Part shown: one piece after another, positions 2,209 to 26,068 of the stretch
Position numbering within the stretch: the first letter of the stretch is position 1
How the letters are laid out: the number at the start of each line of letters is the position of its first letter
From: a virus
Direction: 5' to 3' (one strand)
Length of the DNA stretch: 26,068 nucleotides
IMG/VR virus record: IMGVR_UViG_3300017756_003603
Coordinates: 1-26,068 of that record
Translations under genes and position numbers: made by a program
Notes under the pieces: generated by a model
What the model was told of the DNA's origin: nothing
The model's input: the letters and a program-made list of their open reading frames with translations, nothing else
Databases searched by the model: none

Positions 2209-3504
2209 ATGACAAAGTTAAGTAATTCAGAATTACTCGCGCCATTAGAATGGCACAATGAAAAAAGAAAAGTAAAAGACCTGGTACCCTTTGAGTACAA
2301 CCCCAGGATCCTTACCGAAGAAAAAAAGCAAAGACTTGTAAAAAGCCTGGAGAAATTTAACCTGGCCGAAGTTCCAGCCATTAACACCGACAATAAAATT
2401 ATTGCCGGCCATCAACGTGTAAAGGTTTTAATTCAGTTAGATCGAGGAAATGAAACTATTGATGTAAGAGTTCCTAATCGGGAACTCACCGAGGAGGAAT
2501 TCAAAGAATACAACATCACTTCTAACGTTCCTGCAGGTTTTTGGGATGCCGATGCATTGGAAGAACATTTTGATGATATAGATCTCGAGGCGCTCGGTTT
2601 ATACATCGGTGAAATTGATGTTCCAGATGATCTTGTTCCGGAGGAATTTCAAGATGAAGAAGAAAAAGATTTCGAGCCAGATCCTCCCGCGGATCCAGTT
2701 ACAGTAGAAGGAGATATTTATGAACTCAAAAGCTTAAAGAAAGAGCTTACACACAGAATTATTTGCGGAGATAGCAGAGCGCCGGAAGTTTATAAAAAGC
2801 TGCTTAGCGGCGAGCAAATTGATCTTACAGTAACAGATCCTCCTTATAATGTAGATTACCAGGGCGGGAATAAACAGAAGCGCGATAAAATTGCCAACGA
2901 TAAGATGGAAACGAAGTCTTTTTACGATTTCCTGTTGCAGTTTTATCAGCAAACTTTTGAGAATTCAAAAGAAGGAGCGCCCATTTATGTGTTCCACGCC
3001 GATACTGAAGGTGTGAATTTTAGGAGCGCACTGGTTGATGCCGGGTTCAAATTCTCTCAATGCCTTATTTGGAAAAAGAATTCTATTGTAATGAGCCGGC
3101 AGGATTACCACTGGTTACACGAACCATGTCTTTACGGTTGGAAAACCGGTGCTGCGCATCCCTGGCATAGCGATAGAAAGCAGCGCACTGTAATGGAGTT
3201 TGACCGGCCTTCAAAAAGTGCAGAGCATCCTACAATGAAACCTTTAAAACTTATTAGTTATTTAATTGGTAACAGCTCCAGGCAACGGCAAATAGTTTTT
3301 GATGCTTTCCTGGGATCGGGCAGTACTTTGATTAGTTGTGAGAAATTGTGGCGTGCCTGCAGAGGAATTGAACTGGATCCAAAATACTCTGATGTAGAAG
3401 TGAAACGCTGGGTTATTTATATGCAGGATAATGATCTGGACTTTGAAGTTTGGAAGAATGGTGAGAAGCTTGAAACCAGTGATTTAGAGGCTTATTTATC
3501 TTAG
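2209..3504 (+). CDS. ParB-like nuclease domain fused to DNA methyltransferase (DPPY type)
   Basis: This 431-residue protein has two recognisable parts. Residues about 18-100 form a ParB/Srx-type domain, with NPR at 31-33 and the signature GHQR at 67-70. Residues about 165-405 form an S-adenosylmethionine-dependent amino-methyltransferase: catalytic motif IV is DPPY (210-213), the AdoMet-binding motif is FLGSGST (367-373), and HPTMKP (340-345) is typical of the beta arrangement, in which DPPY precedes the FxGxG motif. The enzyme should methylate N6-adenine or N4-cytosine in phage or host DNA; no partner restriction gene is seen. ParB-methyltransferase fusions are frequent next to terminase genes in phages and probably serve self-protection or packaging control. 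The start lies directly after the inverted repeat at 2112-2208. Confidence 0.9.
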   Translation: MTKLSNSELLAPLEWHNEKRKVKDLVPFEYNPRILTEEKKQRLVKSLEKFNLAEVPAINTDNKIIAGHQRVKVLIQLDRGNETIDVRVPNRELTEEEFKEYNITSNVPAGFWDADALEEHFDDIDLEALGLYIGEIDVPDDLVPEEFQDEEEKDFEPDPPADPVTVEGDIYELKSLKKELTHRIICGDSRAPEVYKKLLSGEQIDLTVTDPPYNVDYQGGNKQKRDKIANDKMETKSFYDFLLQFYQQTFENSKEGAPIYVFHADTEGVNFRSALVDAGFKFSQCLIWKKNSIVMSRQDYHWLHEPCLYGWKTGAAHPWHSDRKQRTVMEFDRPSKSAEHPTMKPLKLISYLIGNSSRQRQIVFDAFLGSGSTLISCEKLWRACRGIELDPKYSDVEVKRWVIYMQDNDLDFEVWKNGEKLETSDLEAYLS

Positions 3505-4617: not shown

Positions 4618-6165
4618 TTAAAACGTGGTGATCGGCATATCGTCCTTGCCCACGTTATTTCCAATCAATTTATCCCAGAACTTCTCAAAGATAGGGTAGT
4701 CAAAAGTATCAGATAAGTGAGTGGCGTGCTCCTGCTCTACTCCCTTCCGTTGCTCAGGTCGTTTATCCTTCTCTAATCCTCGGCCACGATCGTATGCCTC
4801 TGCGTGCTCAAGTGAGACAATCAGGTTAGGGCAATTGGTTTGGTTAATTCTAATCTTCGGTAAGTTCTTTCGGCCATCATCCTTCAGCATCACATTCAAC
4901 AGCCTGAACTTATCGATATAACTCGGGTTCAATCCGGTGGTCATATTATGCACTGTCCAGCCGTGATCTTCCATAATTTTTTTAGCCTGGTCCGCAAAGG
5001 TCATCTTTGAGTTAGCTGTCCGGTTGTTACCCGTCCTATCATAATAGAAGTATACCGTTTTATTTTTATGGTTGGAATAGTAAGGCAGGAATTCCTCTAT
5101 AAATAAGTGGTCAAGGATCTTCGGTGATTTCACATAAAACTCCTTGAGTACATACCAGGTATCATTCTGTTGTTGGTGTACAGTCATCGCATTGATATTG
5201 GCTCCCCAATCGACAGAAACAATTAATGGGTCACTCTTAATAACATCAGCATCCTGCTTACTATTAAAATATTTATCCTGGCTCGAGATAGGATTTCCAT
5301 CAAGATCACTAAGCGGGATCCCCTCCAGGTAATCATTATCTTTATTGGTGTAATAATGGTCCTCAGTTAGCTGTGGGTAGAAACCGTCTGCAATCTCCCT
5401 TGGCCTAATATTCAGCATCTCGGCATTATATACCAGGTCGCTCGAATACGAGTCCTTCATATATTCAAAGTAATCCGATCGCACATTATCAAGGTTCCAA
5501 TGTGCCGTTGCCGAATGAAAGAAATAATCATCTGGCTTCTTCCTGGCCAGCTCTTCTCCTTCTATAAACCATTTCCCTTTCTTTGTTAATGGCGTGGAGC
5601 TTACGTAAGTTTCTGAGAGAGCCCATTTGTTATTCCCGTAAATACTCTCTTTTGATGATCGGTTGGTGTTCTTTACGTTAATGGAAAGTTTCTGGTTATC
5701 TAAGAGCGCCGCTTCATCGGCAAGAATTCCCGAGGAGTTAATACCTCGCCCACCATTAGAACTATTAGGATTGTCGAGTCCTACCAATTGAAAGACTGTG
5801 CCGTTTGAAAAGTGAATGATGTTCTTCCAATGGTTGGGCTTTTCATAGGGCATTTTAAAACCCATTCTTTTTCCGGCACTGGATCCAACCACATAATCGA
5901 TATCTTCATAGATCCCGAAGAACTCAAGTGCTGCTTTAGTAGATTTCAGCGTATTAGAGAGTACCTGGGCATAGGTATTTCCTACCAGGATAAATGTGGC
6001 CCTAGGCAGGTTTTTAACCATCATCAACATAAAATATGCGAGAATGGTACTCTTTCCGGTTCCCCTGCCCCACTCCAGGAACTTAATTTTCTGCTTGGCC
6101 AGAATAGCCACAATCTGGGCAAAGTTTAACGTGATCTTTCCTCTTACTCCTCTACGCTTCGCCAT
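4618..6165 (-). CDS. terL: Terminase large subunit (packaging ATPase/nuclease)
   Basis: This 515-residue protein is the motor that pumps phage DNA into the prohead and cuts it. The N-terminal ATPase has a Walker A motif GRGTGKST (33-40), a Walker B motif ILADEA (147-152, D150/E151) and a coupling motif in SETYVSSTP (184-192). The C-terminal RNase H-like nuclease shows the expected metal ligands: D319 in SVDWG (317-321), D376 in YYDRTGN, and D486/D489 in HLSDTFDY. Its length is normal for the family. The start overlaps the end of the small subunit gene by 14 bases. Both lie on the - strand, opposite to the portal and tail genes, which is unusual because terL normally precedes the portal gene in the same orientation. 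Confidence 0.95.
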   Translation of the reverse strand: MAKRRGVRGKITLNFAQIVAILAKQKIKFLEWGRGTGKSTILAYFMLMMVKNLPRATFILVGNTYAQVLSNTLKSTKAALEFFGIYEDIDYVVGSSAGKRMGFKMPYEKPNHWKNIIHFSNGTVFQLVGLDNPNSSNGGRGINSSGILADEAALLDNQKLSINVKNTNRSSKESIYGNNKWALSETYVSSTPLTKKGKWFIEGEELARKKPDDYFFHSATAHWNLDNVRSDYFEYMKDSYSSDLVYNAEMLNIRPREIADGFYPQLTEDHYYTNKDNDYLEGIPLSDLDGNPISSQDKYFNSKQDADVIKSDPLIVSVDWGANINAMTVHQQQNDTWYVLKEFYVKSPKILDHLFIEEFLPYYSNHKNKTVYFYYDRTGNNRTANSKMTFADQAKKIMEDHGWTVHNMTTGLNPSYIDKFRLLNVMLKDDGRKNLPKIRINQTNCPNLIVSLEHAEAYDRGRGLEKDKRPEQRKGVEQEHATHLSDTFDYPIFEKFWDKLIGNNVGKDDMPITTF

Positions 6166-6754
6166 CTTCCTTGGTATTTTTAATTTCCTCGAAATCGATG
6201 TCTACGGCATCACTCACATTCATATTAACAGCGCCACCGGTACCAAGAATTTTCTGAACCAGGCGTTCCTGTTTCTTGGAGATAATTATATCGTAATCTT
6301 GAGAAGCTATTTTCTCTAAATCAATTGGCGAGTCCTCTTGATCAAGCCCCAGCAGTTTATCTATTTCCTTATCAATTTTATAGGCTAGCTCTATATTCTT
6401 ATCCTTAAGAGCTAATTGATAAAGTTTGTGTTTACGCTCTATAGAAATGTATCTCCAGGCTTCCTTATCGAATCTTTTAAACGAACCAAACAACATCTCG
6501 CAGCGTTGTACATCCCGGTAAGCCGTTGCTTTGCTCACTCCAAAGAGATTCATTAACCGCTTTACCGCATCTTCAGGCGATCGGAATTCCAGCAATGCAG
6601 TAAATGCCGTTTCCCACCTTTTCTTTAAATCCTGGTCTGTTTTAGAGAGCTGCTTTTGCTTGACTTCTTCCGGTGTATCGGTGTCTAGATAATATGCCAG
6701 AACGTTCTCAAAATGAGTGTCACTGGAGCTTAGTTTCAATTCGTTATTTGCCAA
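6152..6754 (-). CDS. terS: Terminase small subunit, TTG start
   Basis: This 200-residue protein should recognise phage DNA for packaging. Residues about 63-85 form a helix-turn-helix (KRLMNLFGVSKATAYRDVQR), followed by a helical oligomerisation region (YISIERKHKLYQLALKDKN) and an acidic tail, the usual order in small terminases. Directly downstream is terL, overlapping by 14 bases. The start has to be TTG at 6754-6752: an in-frame TAA lies five codons upstream (plus-strand positions 6767-6769), no ATG occurs in the first 60 codons, and the predicted transcription start at about 6768 leaves a 14-base leader. Confidence 0.85.
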   Translation of the reverse strand: MANNELKLSSSDTHFENVLAYYLDTDTPEEVKQKQLSKTDQDLKKRWETAFTALLEFRSPEDAVKRLMNLFGVSKATAYRDVQRCEMLFGSFKRFDKEAWRYISIERKHKLYQLALKDKNIELAYKIDKEIDKLLGLDQEDSPIDLEKIASQDYDIIISKKQERLVQKILGTGGAVNMNVSDAVDIDFEEIKNTKEDGEA

Positions 6755-9667: not shown

Positions 9668-10870
9668 ATGGCACAGGCACCAAGACCAAGTAATGGTTTT
9701 AAAAATAAGCAGAATGTAAATCCTTCATTAGATAGGAATACAGAAGCCTCCGCTGAAGATTTTCAGGAAGCGGCCAGTCTTTTTGAGTGGTTTGCCGATT
9801 GGGTAGATAACCAGGTGCAACCAGAGAAATTCTATCAGTTCCATACCAGCCTGCCTAATCTCGCTGCTGCGCATCCCAATGCAGAAGAAGATGGTTGGGC
9901 AATTATAGTACCCGATAACGGAAACACACCTTTTGTAGCAACTTTTACCGATGGTGAATGGGTAGCAAGCCAGGTTGAACCACCAGTACAATTTTTTGAT
10001 ACCAAAATAGCAAGGGACCAGGCCGGGGATGGCCAGGAGGGCATTTTTTATATTATTAAAGATGCGAAGCTTATCTCCCTTTGGTACAATAATAAGTACA
10101 ACGATTTTGGTAAAGACGGGAATAACGGACTTGACGCTTATCAGGTAGCCTTAGCTTTTGGTTTTGAAGGAAGCGAGCAGGAATGGCTAGAAAGCCTTAA
10201 AGGGAAATCTGCCTATCAGAGTGCTGTGGATAATGGCTTTGAAGGTACAGAAGCCGAATGGATAGAAAGCCTTGGAGGTATTCCCGGAAAAAGCGCATAC
10301 CAGGTATGGCTAGATGCCGGGAACCAGGGAACAGAAGCAGACTTCTTTTTAAGTATCACAGGACCCGATGGGAAAAGTGTCTATCAAACTTGGTTAGATG
10401 AAGGAAACCAGGGAACCGAAGCTGATTTTCTGGCCAGCCTTGAAGGGGATCCGGGAGATCCTGGAAAAAGTACGTATCAAATCTGGTTAGATGCAGGAAA
10501 CCAGGGAACCGAAGCTGATTTTCTTTTAAGTATAAAAGGAGAACCCGGTGCTGGTTTTGAAAACATACCTGCTGAAGCAAATAAGATCCCGGTGACAGAT
10601 GGGGAAGGTGGGATTAATTGGGAAGAGAAGTCTTCCGACCCTGGAACCGGTGGTAGTGGAATGGGAAATATAGACTTCGGACTTACCGGAGCTATTGATG
10701 GTACAAATAAAGTTTTCCAAACTTCAGCTGAATTCCCAGCAGGAAAAGTATTGATCTTTTTGAACGGGATTGCGCAGACTTTAGGTGATGATTACACTGA
10801 AAGCACAACGCAAATAATTGAATTTATTGAAGCTCCTCACCAGGGCGATAAACTTATAGCAGTTTACTAA
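9668..10870 (+). CDS. Tail fibre protein with about five GKSxYQxWLDxGNQGTEADFL repeats
   Basis: The 400-residue product has an N-terminal domain (1-150), a repeat region (about 154-296) and a C-terminal beta domain (about 333-400). The repeat region holds five copies of a 28-31 residue unit in which a G-K-S-x-Y-Q start, an aromatic/acidic middle and a G-T-E-A-[DE] end recur, joined by collagen-like GxxG linkers such as GDPGDPGK. Such units are common in fibres of dsDNA phages and form elongated trimers. The C-terminal domain (GTNKVFQTSAEFP, then VLIFLNGIAQTLGDDYT) is a widespread tail/fibre module. It sits directly upstream of the putative receptor-binding protein, so it probably carries or positions that protein. 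Confidence 0.8.
   Translation: MAQAPRPSNGFKNKQNVNPSLDRNTEASAEDFQEAASLFEWFADWVDNQVQPEKFYQFHTSLPNLAAAHPNAEEDGWAIIVPDNGNTPFVATFTDGEWVASQVEPPVQFFDTKIARDQAGDGQEGIFYIIKDAKLISLWYNNKYNDFGKDGNNGLDAYQVALAFGFEGSEQEWLESLKGKSAYQSAVDNGFEGTEAEWIESLGGIPGKSAYQVWLDAGNQGTEADFFLSITGPDGKSVYQTWLDEGNQGTEADFLASLEGDPGDPGKSTYQIWLDAGNQGTEADFLLSIKGEPGAGFENIPAEANKIPVTDGEGGINWEEKSSDPGTGGSGMGNIDFGLTGAIDGTNKVFQTSAEFPAGKVLIFLNGIAQTLGDDYTESTTQIIEFIEAPHQGDKLIAVY
10128..10550 (+). repeat. Imperfect tandem repeats inside the tail fibre gene
   Basis: About five units of 84-93 bp encode the GKS-Y-Q...GTEAD repeats. The last three units share long identical stretches, for example GGAAACCAGGGAACCGAAGC near 10403 and 10496. The first two are more diverged, so the array has probably grown towards its 3' side. 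Confidence 0.85.
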
Positions 10871-12321: not shown

Positions 12322-12852
12322 ATGAAATCAAAATTATCCTCCCTGCTTTCCTGGACAAAGGAAGCTTTTCAAAACATCGCCGGTCTTATAGGATCCCTTT
12401 TCCTAAACCTGCTGGCAATTATTCTATTTGTTGTTTGCTTTTTCCCGGCAATTATCTGGAAGGTTGTGGCCTCCATTGGTCAGAAAAAAAGAAAGATTCG
12501 GGATATCCTTACCGGTACCACTAAATTCTTCGTTGGGATTGCTATTGCATTAGACCAGGTGGGCAATGTTGCTTTTGGAGGTTTCTTTAACTGGCTATTT
12601 CTCAAGGATCCTGTCACCTTTCCTTTTGGAAATACCCACGAAACAGTAAGCGAAGTCCTGGGCTGGAACCAGACTGTCGACAACCTTAATCGCAAAGGGA
12701 AACTTATGGTCTCCATTCTAAATGTAATAGAAAAAGATCACTGCCTTAAAGCTATGACTTCGGGATTATTTGATGCTAAATACAAAGTCTCAGCCTTTAA
12801 GGAGATCGAGACCATTAATGATCGTAAGGCTTTTATAGAAAAATATTCTTAA
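12322..12852 (+). CDS. Membrane-associated phage protein
   Basis: This 176-residue protein has a basic N-terminus, one long or two short membrane segments (about residues 18-50), a basic loop (GQKKRKIRD), a second hydrophobic stretch (about 68-95, with ALDQVGNVAFGG) and a soluble C-terminal part with a conserved-looking VIEKDHCLKAM. The ALDQ...GG followed by ETVS pattern resembles small proteins that I recall from many tailed phages, none with a settled function. It is the first gene after the 12261 promoter and is followed by secreted and lysis genes, so a role at the cell membrane late in infection is reasonable but inferred. Confidence 0.7.
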   Translation: MKSKLSSLLSWTKEAFQNIAGLIGSLFLNLLAIILFVVCFFPAIIWKVVASIGQKKRKIRDILTGTTKFFVGIAIALDQVGNVAFGGFFNWLFLKDPVTFPFGNTHETVSEVLGWNQTVDNLNRKGKLMVSILNVIEKDHCLKAMTSGLFDAKYKVSAFKEIETINDRKAFIEKYS

Positions 12853-12886: not shown

Positions 12887-13468
12887 ATGAAAAAATTATT
12901 TTCAATCTTAATCATTTCCCTGGTCGCACTCTCTAGTTATGGCCAAAACCGTTTCAGTGAAAAATTTGCTGATGCAGATCTAGCTTTTAACCTGGAAGAA
13001 AACAAGTACCAGGAAGCCGCTACTACAGCCGCTATTATCACAGACGCACAACCTGAAGTTATAGCCTTTGAAAAAGAGCTAATCAAAGATTTTCAGGAAC
13101 TAGAAAATAATCTTGTGCCGCTTTCAGAACCTCAAATTGATACAATAACCACAAACTTTAGAGTAGTAGATCTCTCCGGAGATTCCGCTAAAATTATGAC
13201 CTCTCACGGTGGTAGATTTTATGTTGCATCTGCAACTCCAGAGCTAAATCCCTTCGGTTATGTTCTCGAGGTGGAACGGGAATTCACAATTGCTATAGAA
13301 GTAGATAAGAATCTCATCTATCAAAAACAAACCAGGGGACAAACCGGAATCGTACCTGCTAGAATAATTTGGCTTACTGTTTCTCCAGATCAACTTAAAC
13401 GAGACCAGCTCCAAATTAAAAGATACCTGGAAGAAGAACCCGGCTACGATCGTAGCCCTAGGTACTAA
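12887..13468 (+). CDS. Exported protein with a Sec signal peptide
   Basis: The 193-residue product begins with a textbook signal peptide (MKKLFSILIISLVALSSYGQ) with a likely cleavage site after residue 19. The mature part is acidic and mixed alpha/beta, with the segment FRVVDLSGDSAKIMTSHGG in the middle and a basic, proline-containing C-terminus. There is no lipobox cysteine. It sits between a membrane protein and the lysis genes, so the mature protein should act in the periplasm of the infected cell or lysogen, perhaps in lysis control or superinfection exclusion; that is inference. I do not recognise the family. The leader is AT-rich and has no Shine-Dalgarno sequence. Confidence 0.7.
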   Translation: MKKLFSILIISLVALSSYGQNRFSEKFADADLAFNLEENKYQEAATTAAIITDAQPEVIAFEKELIKDFQELENNLVPLSEPQIDTITTNFRVVDLSGDSAKIMTSHGGRFYVASATPELNPFGYVLEVEREFTIAIEVDKNLIYQKQTRGQTGIVPARIIWLTVSPDQLKRDQLQIKRYLEEEPGYDRSPRY

Positions 13469-13485
13469 TCTAAACTAAATCTACA

Positions 13486-13848
13486 ATGACCGAATTCCTA
13501 CTTAATAACTGGCAATTTCTTCTAGGCATATTAGGCTCTGTTATAACCTTTCTTACAGGATGGAAACTAAGAACCATCAATGTAAAAAAGGAAGGAGCCT
13601 CTGCACTGGAGAGTATCCAGAAAGTTTATGACACTTTTTCCACACAAACGAACAAAAAGTTCGATGAATTATATGGAGAGATCAAAAGCCTAAAGGAAGA
13701 AAATCTTCAACAGCGTAAATCAATCCGGGAACTCCAACGAGACAACCGAGATCTTCATAAAGAAGTATCTAAACTGATGCAGAAAAACAATGAGCTGCTT
13801 CTCGAGAACCAGAGATTGAAACTTGAAAACACAACCCCGGCACCATGA
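13486..13848 (+). CDS. Membrane-anchored coiled-coil protein of the lysis region, holin or spanin-like candidate
   Basis: This 120-residue protein has one N-terminal membrane segment (about residues 8-26, with WQFLLGILGSVITFLTGW) followed by a basic turn and a long coiled coil (about 62-115) dominated by Glu, Lys, Leu and Gln. It ends by overlapping the endolysin start by four bases, so the two are translationally coupled. A single-span protein directly before the endolysin could be a holin-class or lysis-regulating protein; the coiled coil also recalls the inner-membrane half of a two-component spanin. The downstream protein already looks like a one-piece spanin, so the exact role is open. 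Confidence 0.65.
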   Translation: MTEFLLNNWQFLLGILGSVITFLTGWKLRTINVKKEGASALESIQKVYDTFSTQTNKKFDELYGEIKSLKEENLQQRKSIRELQRDNRDLHKEVSKLMQKNNELLLENQRLKLENTTPAP

Positions 13849-14489
13849 ACCAACTCCAAAAATGGCAAAAAAGCCACGGATTATTAAATGATGGTATTCC
13901 TGGAAAGAAAACCCTGGGAAAAATGAAGTCGGTTTTTTGTCTTACAAATGAGCAGCTTGCCCACTTTATAGGGCAAATGGCTCACGAATCTCAGAACTTT
14001 ACCCGGGAGTTTGAAAACCTGAATTATTCTTGCGAGCGATTGCTCCAGATATTTAGTTACGATTTTGATCGTGACAAGAACCGGATCCTTTCTGCTGAAG
14101 AAAAGGAGATGGCAATGATCATCGCCAGGCAACCTGAGAAGATCGCAAACTTTGTTTACGCAAACCAGGGTGGCAATGGAGATGAATTCTCCGGAGACGG
14201 TTGGAAATTCCGTGGTCGTGGTCCACTACAATTAACCCTTCGAGATAATTATGAGCGCTTTGCTAAATATGCCAAGGATCCGAAGATAGTTTGCAATCCG
14301 GATGTCGTAGTCGAAAAATACTATTTCGATTCTGCATTATGGTTTTTTAAAGTAAACCGTTTGTGGCCAATCTGCACCCAGGTTAATGATGATTCAATTA
14401 AAAAATTAACCAAGAGAATTAACGGCGGTTACAATGGCCTGCAGGACAGAATTGAAAAGACGAACCATTTTTATAGCCTACTCACATGA
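13845..14489 (+). CDS. Endolysin, glycoside hydrolase family 19-like
   Basis: The 214-residue enzyme should cut peptidoglycan glycan strands at the end of infection. It begins with a short segment resembling the end of a peptidoglycan-binding repeat (LQKWQKSHGLLNDGIPGKKT). The catalytic domain follows, with MAHESQNF (candidate acid E48), FENLNYSCERLL (E57 as a candidate second acid) and the substrate-cleft motif GWKFRGRGPLQLT (about 122-134). A segment DRDKNRILSAEE (75-86) fits an EF-hand calcium loop except that the usual glycine is arginine. There is no signal peptide, so it needs a holin for release. It overlaps both neighbours by four bases. Confidence 0.88.
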   Translation: MNQLQKWQKSHGLLNDGIPGKKTLGKMKSVFCLTNEQLAHFIGQMAHESQNFTREFENLNYSCERLLQIFSYDFDRDKNRILSAEEKEMAMIIARQPEKIANFVYANQGGNGDEFSGDGWKFRGRGPLQLTLRDNYERFAKYAKDPKIVCNPDVVVEKYYFDSALWFFKVNRLWPICTQVNDDSIKKLTKRINGGYNGLQDRIEKTNHFYSLLT

Positions 14490-14959
14490 AAAAACTAGTA
14501 CTCCTATTCCTGGCCTTCTCCTTTTTAAGCTGCAGCACTAGAAAATCTGAAGTTCAAAAAAAAGAAGAATCGGTTTCGGTATTGAAACAAAACGATATCA
14601 AGAAAACCGAGCTGGAGAAGATCCAGGCCGATATCATTACGATCTCTTCTAGGCAGGATATTAATCTCTCGCCTCGAGATCCAGAAAAAGAAATGAAAAT
14701 CGTTTACGGTAACGACACTCTTGTGGCCACCAATGCCGATATCAACATCAGCAATCGCCGGGATGCAGAAAAAGACAAATCCCAAACTCAGCGTGAAGCT
14801 TCAGAAACCGATAAAACCTCTGAAGCTTCAGAAACCGATAAAAGCGAAAAAAAACGAAAAACCGATCGCCAATCAGCAAGCTGGGGACTTAACCTCGGGA
14901 TCATCTTTGGAATAATTGTCATAATAATAGTTGGTTATATACATTTTAGAACTAAATAA
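14486..14959 (+). CDS. Putative unimolecular spanin (lipoprotein with C-terminal membrane anchor)
   Basis: The 157-residue product begins with a lipoprotein signal (MKKLVLLFLAFSFLSC, acylated cysteine C16) and ends with a strong transmembrane helix (about residues 133-153) followed by a short basic tail. Between them lies a highly charged periplasmic region with helical parts and two copies of EASETDK. A lipid anchor at one end and an inner-membrane span at the other is the defining topology of a u-spanin, which links the two membranes and fuses them after peptidoglycan is cut. Position immediately after the endolysin, with a 4-base overlap, supports this. The lipobox has Phe at -3, tolerated in Bacteroidota. 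Confidence 0.7.
   Translation: MKKLVLLFLAFSFLSCSTRKSEVQKKEESVSVLKQNDIKKTELEKIQADIITISSRQDINLSPRDPEKEMKIVYGNDTLVATNADINISNRRDAEKDKSQTQREASETDKTSEASETDKSEKKRKTDRQSASWGLNLGIIFGIIVIIIVGYIHFRTK
14794..14843 (+). repeat. Two-copy 27-bp-period direct repeat in the spanin-like gene
   Basis: TGAAGCTTCAGAAACCGATA followed by three further A residues occurs at 14794-14816 and again at 14821-14843. The period is 27 bases, so copy change adds or removes nine residues in the periplasmic linker without changing frame. Confidence 0.85.
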
Positions 14960-24757: not shown

Positions 24758-26068
24758 CTAAAAATCTAAAGTGAAAATATTCGAGTGATCTGGAGGAATG
24801 GATTTTTTATGTTTCCGGAGGTAGTTTTTTATTCCGGCAATAGATCTATGTTGGGTGATGGGCATTAATTGGAATAGGATCTCCATTTCCCCTTTTCCTT
24901 CATCTACCAGAGAATTGTATAAATTCATTATTGCCGTATGCCTGGCAGAGTAAATTCCGTATTCCCGGCCAAAACCTAACCTTGTCTTTACCACCCGGAA
25001 CCGCTTTCCAAAATGATCGGCCATTGTCTTCAGGGAAGCATCCCAATCGGCCGGCTGATCTTTATTGCTAAAAAGATTATAAGAAGGCGGATACTTCTCG
25101 AGCTCCATCTCTTTAATAGTTGGTTTTAGCTTTTCAATAATTCGGCGAACGCTTAGATCTTCTGTTTTCGTTTCCACCTGCAGCAACCAGTTTTTTGTAT
25201 TGAGATCTTTTACTTTTAACCTGCAGATCTCCAACGGCCGTAAAAGTGAATAAATCACAAAGGCCATATAATGTTTAAGGTAAGGATCTGTTTTCTCCAG
25301 CTCTTCTTTGATAAGCTGGAGCTCTTCCATAGTAAATGCTTTGTTGTTTACCGGTTCTGCCTCGACGTCTGGAATATCCTTTATAAAATTGAAAGGAATT
25401 AGCCGTTCGTTTTTCATTGTGGTAAATAATGCTGAAAGACTTCCTTTATGGTTATTAACCGAACTGCCGGAAACTTCCCGGCCGGTATTTTCATTCACAT
25501 AATCAAAACGAAGCCAATCCAGGAACTCATAAAACTGATCTATTCCAAACCGCGCCGGATCCAATCCATAATAGCCGTTATTTTTTGCCCATTCCAGGAA
25601 CCGGTTCTTGTGAAATTCATAGCCGTTAAGAGTAGAAGGTTTTCTTCCGGACTTTAATTTGATCTTATAAGCATAATCTACAGCGGTCCCTAGATTCATA
25701 TTAGGACCGCGTTTTTTTGCTTTAGCAGATTTCCGTTCTTCCTTATCTGGAACCCAACCGCGCTCCAGGGCATAAGTCAAAATTGAAACCAGGTGTTTCC
25801 CTGCAGTCTTTCTTTCTTTAACAGTTTTAAGTCGGTTGATTTTTTTTGTAAAGGAAAATTTACGGTCTAACGGTCCTTTCGGATCTGTTCGCCAATAGAA
25901 TGAGACATACCACCTTTTTCCCGGAGCAACGGAAGGTTTGCCGTTAACCCTGGGGATATATAATTTTGGCTGCGAATATCTCTTTTCCGCCATAGATATC
26001 TCAATAGAAATTACAGAATTTCCAGGTACGTTTACAGGTACGATTTCGTTTTTCTTCTTATTTTTCAT
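24758..26068 (-). CDS. int: Tyrosine recombinase (phage integrase)
   Basis: The 436-residue product integrates and, with helpers, excises the element. It has an N-terminal arm-binding part (1-120), a SAM-like core-binding domain (about 125-225) and a catalytic domain (about 245-425). Visible catalytic residues are R277 (SLLRPLEI), a candidate lysine K301, R376 (YSARHTA), H407 (TQHRSI) and the nucleophile Y416 (IKNYLRK). In the second box the usual first histidine of HxxR is tyrosine (Y373), seen in some Bacteroidota integrases. The start codon is the last three bases of the window, so an upstream start cannot be excluded. The attachment site is probably nearby, outside the window. Confidence 0.92.
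   Translation of the reverse strand: MKNKKKNEIVPVNVPGNSVISIEISMAEKRYSQPKLYIPRVNGKPSVAPGKRWYVSFYWRTDPKGPLDRKFSFTKKINRLKTVKERKTAGKHLVSILTYALERGWVPDKEERKSAKAKKRGPNMNLGTAVDYAYKIKLKSGRKPSTLNGYEFHKNRFLEWAKNNGYYGLDPARFGIDQFYEFLDWLRFDYVNENTGREVSGSSVNNHKGSLSALFTTMKNERLIPFNFIKDIPDVEAEPVNNKAFTMEELQLIKEELEKTDPYLKHYMAFVIYSLLRPLEICRLKVKDLNTKNWLLQVETKTEDLSVRRIIEKLKPTIKEMELEKYPPSYNLFSNKDQPADWDASLKTMADHFGKRFRVVKTRLGFGREYGIYSARHTAIMNLYNSLVDEGKGEMEILFQLMPITQHRSIAGIKNYLRKHKKSIPPDHSNIFTLDF

Follow-up and report, generated by a model that had tools for sequence, protein, structure and literature searches.

Thirteen families of unimolecular spanins (u-spanins) have been distinguished, and no periplasmic cysteine is present in any of 58 u-spanins (PMC6139136). 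The gp11 protein of phage T1 complements lambda Rz/Rz1 (PMC6139136). Among Cellulophaga phages, Ingeline and Nekkels have been reported to encode u-spanins, accompanied in Nekkels by a GH19 endolysin (PMC8776804), and according to a 2025 survey u-spanins are the only type of spanin used by phages of Bacteroidetes (PMC12596118). These two studies contradict a statement in the sequence-only reading of the locus described here, that u-spanins are rarely described in Bacteroidota phages. In the same survey u-spanins were said to be absent from temperate viruses (PMC12596118).

Lysis genes of the phage

The sequence studied was the virus record IMGVR_UViG_3300017756_003603, and its whole length of 26,068 bases is referred to here as the window. 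Terminase, portal, tape measure and integrase genes were found, giving a tailed phage that was assigned as temperate because the integrase is of the tyrosine type (Table 1). The window terminase has relatives of 79–88% identity on Zunongwangia, Mesonia and Aequorivita chromosomes or contigs, which points to a member of the Flavobacteriaceae as the host. The region 13486–14959 very probably forms the central part of the lysis cassette of this temperate flavobacterial phage, which would be of the holin-endolysin-u-spanin type. The region contains three genes that overlap by four bases at each of two ATGA sequences (13845–13848 and 14486–14489), and the ORF coordinates thus agree with the overlaps described in the sequence-only reading. 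The products named in that reading, a single-span coiled-coil membrane protein, a GH19 endolysin and a lipoprotein with a C-terminal membrane helix, were all seen, and the predicted topology, the gene order and comparison with other loci support its interpretation of the region as a compact lysis cassette ending in a putative u-spanin. The secreted-looking 193-residue protein encoded immediately upstream has a signal that follows the Q rule described for signal peptidase I signals of Bacteroidota (PMC10367356), and was weakly conserved in a Zunongwangia prophage.

Table 1. Positions of the lysis-region features and of the integrase gene in the window.
Feature	Position	Strand	Basis
176-residue membrane protein with N-terminal anchor; second candidate in the holin region	12322..12852	+	sequence, Zunongwangia prophage homologue
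193-residue protein with signal-peptidase-I-like signal SYG^Q	12887..13468	+	Bacteroidota Q rule; adjoins cassette upstream
120-residue membrane protein, single span and long coiled coil	13486..13848	+	sequence, model, homologues
GH19 endolysin (214 residues) with marginal N-terminal peptidoglycan-binding-like segment	13845..14489	+	Pfam, PHROG, solved homologues
Putative u-spanin of 157 residues, a lipoprotein related to PHROG 5885 with its membrane helix at the C-terminus	14486..14959	+	
Signal peptide, residues 1–15, ending at lipobox FLS^C	14486..14530	+	sequence, rule-based, invariant Cys
Cys16 and STRKSE (+2 to +7), basic R19-K20 at +4/+5	14531..14551	+	sequence/alignment
Predicted beta-hairpin, residues 69–82, beside conserved D65 and N83	14690..14731	+	low-confidence model
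C-terminal membrane helix, about residues 137–153, then HFRTK	14894..14944	+	rules and model
Tyrosine-type integrase	24758..26068	-	

The endolysin passed the Pfam cut-off for PF00182 (27.9 against 25.5 bits), matched PHROG 181 ('endolysin') at 1.7e-53 and resembled GH19 endolysins of known structure, for example 9ms6 and 4ok7. Neither a signal nor a transmembrane (TM) segment was detected in the enzyme, which would therefore depend on a holin. GH19 genes in the other genomes L035–L040 were located in other contexts, without a lipoprotein of the 157-residue type.

Further features were observed elsewhere in the window. The large terminase gene and an adjacent gene, which probably encodes the small terminase and gave no PHROG match, are on the minus strand at 4618–6754 with the portal and tail genes opposite, and terminase and portal genes diverge likewise in relatives. 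A probable tail-fibre protein (9668–10870) contains repeats of the type YQxWLDxGNQGTEADFLxSIxG, whose copy number seems to vary among relatives. The very start of the record (1–115) is a tandem repeat of 5.5 copies of a 21-base unit, and a phage-encoded DNA methyltransferase fused to a ParB-like domain is located at 2209–3504.

The 157-residue lipoprotein and its family

The lipobox FLSC of the 157-residue protein occupies residues 13–16, with lipidation predicted at C16, and is combined with a single C-terminal hydrophobic segment of mean Kyte-Doolittle value 2.66, both having been assigned by simple rules. This topology was found in 1 of the 43 window ORFs of at least 80 residues, namely the 157-residue product, and in 3 of 987 ORFs from 800 kb sampled across two Flavobacteriaceae genomes, all three judged on inspection to be multi-pass false positives; the counts used a looser lipobox rule, the stricter one missing the Zunongwangia copy. 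Asp, Glu, Lys and Arg make up 41% of the periplasmic stretch, and no cysteine is present in residues 17–132. The AlphaFold model, built from two sequences, was mostly of low confidence (mean pLDDT 58) with a value of about 91 for the block 141–150, and its low-confidence periplasmic part consists of one hairpin, a long helix and disorder.

The protein matched PHROG 5885 over its full length (E 1.6e-4, residues 1–156 to profile positions 1–126 of 127) with a modest score, and is a distant member of this family, which is listed as 'unknown function'. Flavobacterium phage FCL-2 gp19 and Cellulophaga phage phi17:1 gp65 are more typical members, the latter standing after a holin and an amidase, and full-length matches to the family were likewise obtained for relatives. 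Comparison with the 'Rz-like spanin' PHROGs gave a single weak match, to phrog_9385 (E 0.016). In an alignment of 12 members the lipobox cysteine is invariant and the Lys at +5 nearly so, a short core includes D65 (near-invariant) and N83 (invariant), and all sequences have a hydrophobic stretch at the C-terminus. The Zunongwangia lipoprotein is 50% identical to the window protein, and its dN/dS of 0.24 against a close relative indicates that the gene is under purifying selection.

These relatives were reached through terminase and whole-genome searches and through a homologue closer to the consensus. A direct scan of viral contigs gave no relatives of either the 157- or the 120-residue protein, and tblastn of the 157-residue protein against annotated phages gave none. 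Matches in L026, L028, L029 and L030 were excluded as host lipoproteins without the C-terminal helix. Two class-wide matches were also rejected, one for in-frame stops (L140) and one because it has several membrane spans and no endolysin was visible near it (L141), and most of the weaker phrog_5885 matches, which fall inside longer ORFs, were left out.

The 157-residue protein is most likely a u-spanin. Its predicted topology and its genomic context are those of one. The single feature looked for and not seen was homology to T1 gp11, and the protein could not be related by sequence to any spanin that has been tested. The class is delimited by topology and function rather than sequence, so homology to gp11 is not required. 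PHROG 5885 would thereby gain a likely function.

Gene order among relatives and the holin

Sixteen proteins with a lipobox and a C-terminal helix were compared (the window, L008, L022, L023, L024, L025, L027, L031, L034, L101, L130, L131, L009, L010, L002 and L004). Thirteen of them are encoded directly behind an endolysin or endolysin-like gene, 12 of these preceding genes being identified by a Pfam match or by clear homology to GH19; the gene preceding the L101 lipoprotein gave no Pfam match. One or two genes lie between endolysin and lipoprotein in FCL-2 (L130) and Arctus_1 (L004), and several in Nekkels (L002). The enzymes across the set comprise GH19, GH108, M15 peptidase, DUF5675, PF11860 muramidase, Amidase_2 and Amidase_3, so that the lipoprotein slot is kept while the endolysin switches among at least six unrelated types. 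Among terminase-related prophages the slot is occupied in Zunongwangia (behind GH19), Mesonia HuA40 (M15) and Aequorivita (amidase), and in other Flavobacteriaceae homologues stand behind GH19, GH108, M15, DUF5675, PF11860 muramidase or Amidase_3. The Zunongwangia atlantica prophage cassette (L008) has the lipoprotein in the same slot behind an endolysin 63% identical to that of the window, but differs in that a 118-residue single-span protein, with no detected similarity to the 120-residue protein, replaces the latter.

The 120-residue protein was modelled as one long helix over residues 9–116 (AlphaFold, mean pLDDT 84). No basic residue precedes its TM segment and K/R/K/K follows directly behind it, and the positive-inside rule therefore predicts an N-out/C-in orientation, as do the charges of its homologues. 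Homologues of 44–45% identity were found in two Mesonia prophages, each upstream of a different endolysin. A coiled-coil membrane protein encoded in one operon with a lipoprotein would also supply the rough parts of a two-component spanin, with the 120-residue protein as inner-membrane and the 157-residue lipoprotein as outer-membrane subunit. An i-spanin, however, needs an N-in TM segment and a periplasmic coiled coil, whereas the coiled coil here is predicted to be cytoplasmic; moreover the gene lies upstream of the endolysin and the lipoprotein has an inner-membrane anchor of its own. The Zunongwangia prophage swaps the 120-residue protein and keeps the lipoprotein, while the reverse is seen in a Mesonia prophage. 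A two-component spanin is thus very improbable, and was rejected on the predicted topology and the replacement of the 120-residue protein in a relative.

The 120-residue protein is instead a probable holin or holin partner. It matched the 'hol-like' PHROG 8369 weakly, and no Pfam holin family was matched above cut-off by it or by the upstream 176-residue protein. The latter is a serious alternative as the holin, with the 120-residue protein as antiholin or regulator; the Zunongwangia prophage retains a copy of it that is 58% identical, while the 120-residue protein has no match there. This assignment is possible but the less probable one, since the C-terminal part of the 176-residue protein is long and soluble, and in several relatives (the window, L008, L011, L027 and L004) the gene immediately before the endolysin encodes a protein with one membrane span and a charged C-terminal tail resembling a coiled coil. 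The order in phage T1 likewise puts the holin directly before the endolysin.

Other arrangements were observed behind endolysins. No u-spanin was found in the scanned stretch of the Mesonia prophages L011 and L013 and of phage immuto (L003). Each has an overlapping gene pair downstream of the endolysin (L011:1729-2371(-), L013:1464-2106(-), L003:5591-6254) encoding an N-terminal-TM coiled-coil protein of i-spanin topology and a protein with a C-terminal hydrophobic helix. In the two Mesonia prophages this second protein lacks cysteine and its signal, SYS^Q, is not of the lipid type. The pair is possibly a lipid-free spanin pair. The Croceibacter phages P2559S and P2559Y, listed as spanin-less (PMC6139136), encode N-terminal-TM proteins right behind the endolysin (L136:27300-28065 and L137:22998-23621). 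An unannotated overlapping ORF of P2559S ends ...GGRLSFAIW and the P2559Y protein ends ...LAGYEFSIFDLKK, which reads like outer-membrane beta-strands. No Pfam match above cut-off was obtained for the proteins of either phage; they are possible spanins whose anchor in the outer membrane would be these beta-strands.

Periplasmic facing and comparison with known u-spanins

We infer the lipidation, localisation and membrane fusion, as well as the identity of the holin, in the following course of lysis. The holin, most likely the 120-residue protein and possibly also the upstream 176-residue protein, would open the inner membrane, and the GH19 endolysin would gain access to the peptidoglycan and cut it. 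After lipidation at C16 the 157-residue protein would be delivered by the Lol pathway to the outer membrane, with its C-terminal helix remaining in the inner membrane, a single chain thus spanning the periplasm. Once the wall was cut, this protein would collapse and join both membranes, destroying the outer membrane.

The surface-export signal of Bacteroidota lipoproteins is acidic, with QKDDE, SDDDD or SDDFE at +2 to +6 (PMC5080379). At least two acidic residues at these positions were found in 20 of 38 host lipoproteins and in none of the 16 u-spanin-like proteins, and Lys or Arg at both +4 and +5 in 1 of 38 and 15 of 16, respectively; the 16 are partly biased in that homologues were found by sequence, and the 38 were pooled across orientations, so that the contrast may in part be one between periplasmic and surface lipoproteins generally. 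The four proteins chosen by position and topology alone (L009, L010, L002 and L004) all have the basic pair. The lack of an acidic export signal after C16, which had been remarked on from STRKSE, therefore holds in all 16 proteins. The 157-residue protein is expected to face the periplasm because this signal is missing, basic residues are present instead and the chain is tethered to the inner membrane. Tentatively, and with considerable doubt, the conserved pair C-x-x-[KR]-[KR] in Bacteroidota u-spanins may be a periplasm-retention tag that blocks the surface-lipoprotein pathway; the inner-membrane tether by itself might prevent export. With basic residues where the acidic signal would sit, the question of periplasmic facing becomes a simple mutational test.

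Many lipoproteins are exported by Bacteroidota and phages carry lipoprotein morons, a common background against which the 157-residue protein could be a surface or superinfection-exclusion lipoprotein placed beside the endolysin by chance. Against this stand the missing export signal, the C-terminal membrane helix and the place behind the endolysin, which is kept next to many unrelated enzymes and is therefore not expected of an unrelated moron. This reading is most unlikely.

Like the 157-residue protein, T1 gp11, the prototype u-spanin, has a lipobox, a single C-terminal TM segment and no periplasmic cysteine, and the T1 order of holin, endolysin and u-spanin, with the spanin last, is that of the window cassette. 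With hhalign the two proteins aligned solely around the lipobox, over 14 residues with a probability of 36%. Gp11 has STASAL after the cysteine, without the basic pair of STRKSE, and T1 uses a SAR endolysin and a pinholin (PMC6139136), whereas the window GH19 enzyme has no signal. A beta-rich periplasmic domain was proposed for gp11, in contrast to the mixture of helix, hairpin and disorder in the low-confidence model of the 157-residue protein.

The Zunongwangia, Mesonia and Aequorivita copies of the lipoprotein lie on contigs of bacterial genomes, next to prophage terminases. Together with the window integrase, this argues that the absence of u-spanins from temperate viruses (PMC12596118) is not generally true, and u-spanins would be present in temperate phages, against the statement of that survey.

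Cellulophaga phage Nekkels resembles the window as a flavobacterial phage with a GH19 endolysin and a predicted u-spanin. The Nekkels candidate identified in the present analysis (L002:5869-6342) is annotated as hypothetical in GenBank. It differs from the window protein in being encoded several genes downstream and in belonging to another sequence family (PHROG 30696), but has, like the window protein, basic residues after the cysteine (CRTKKEV).
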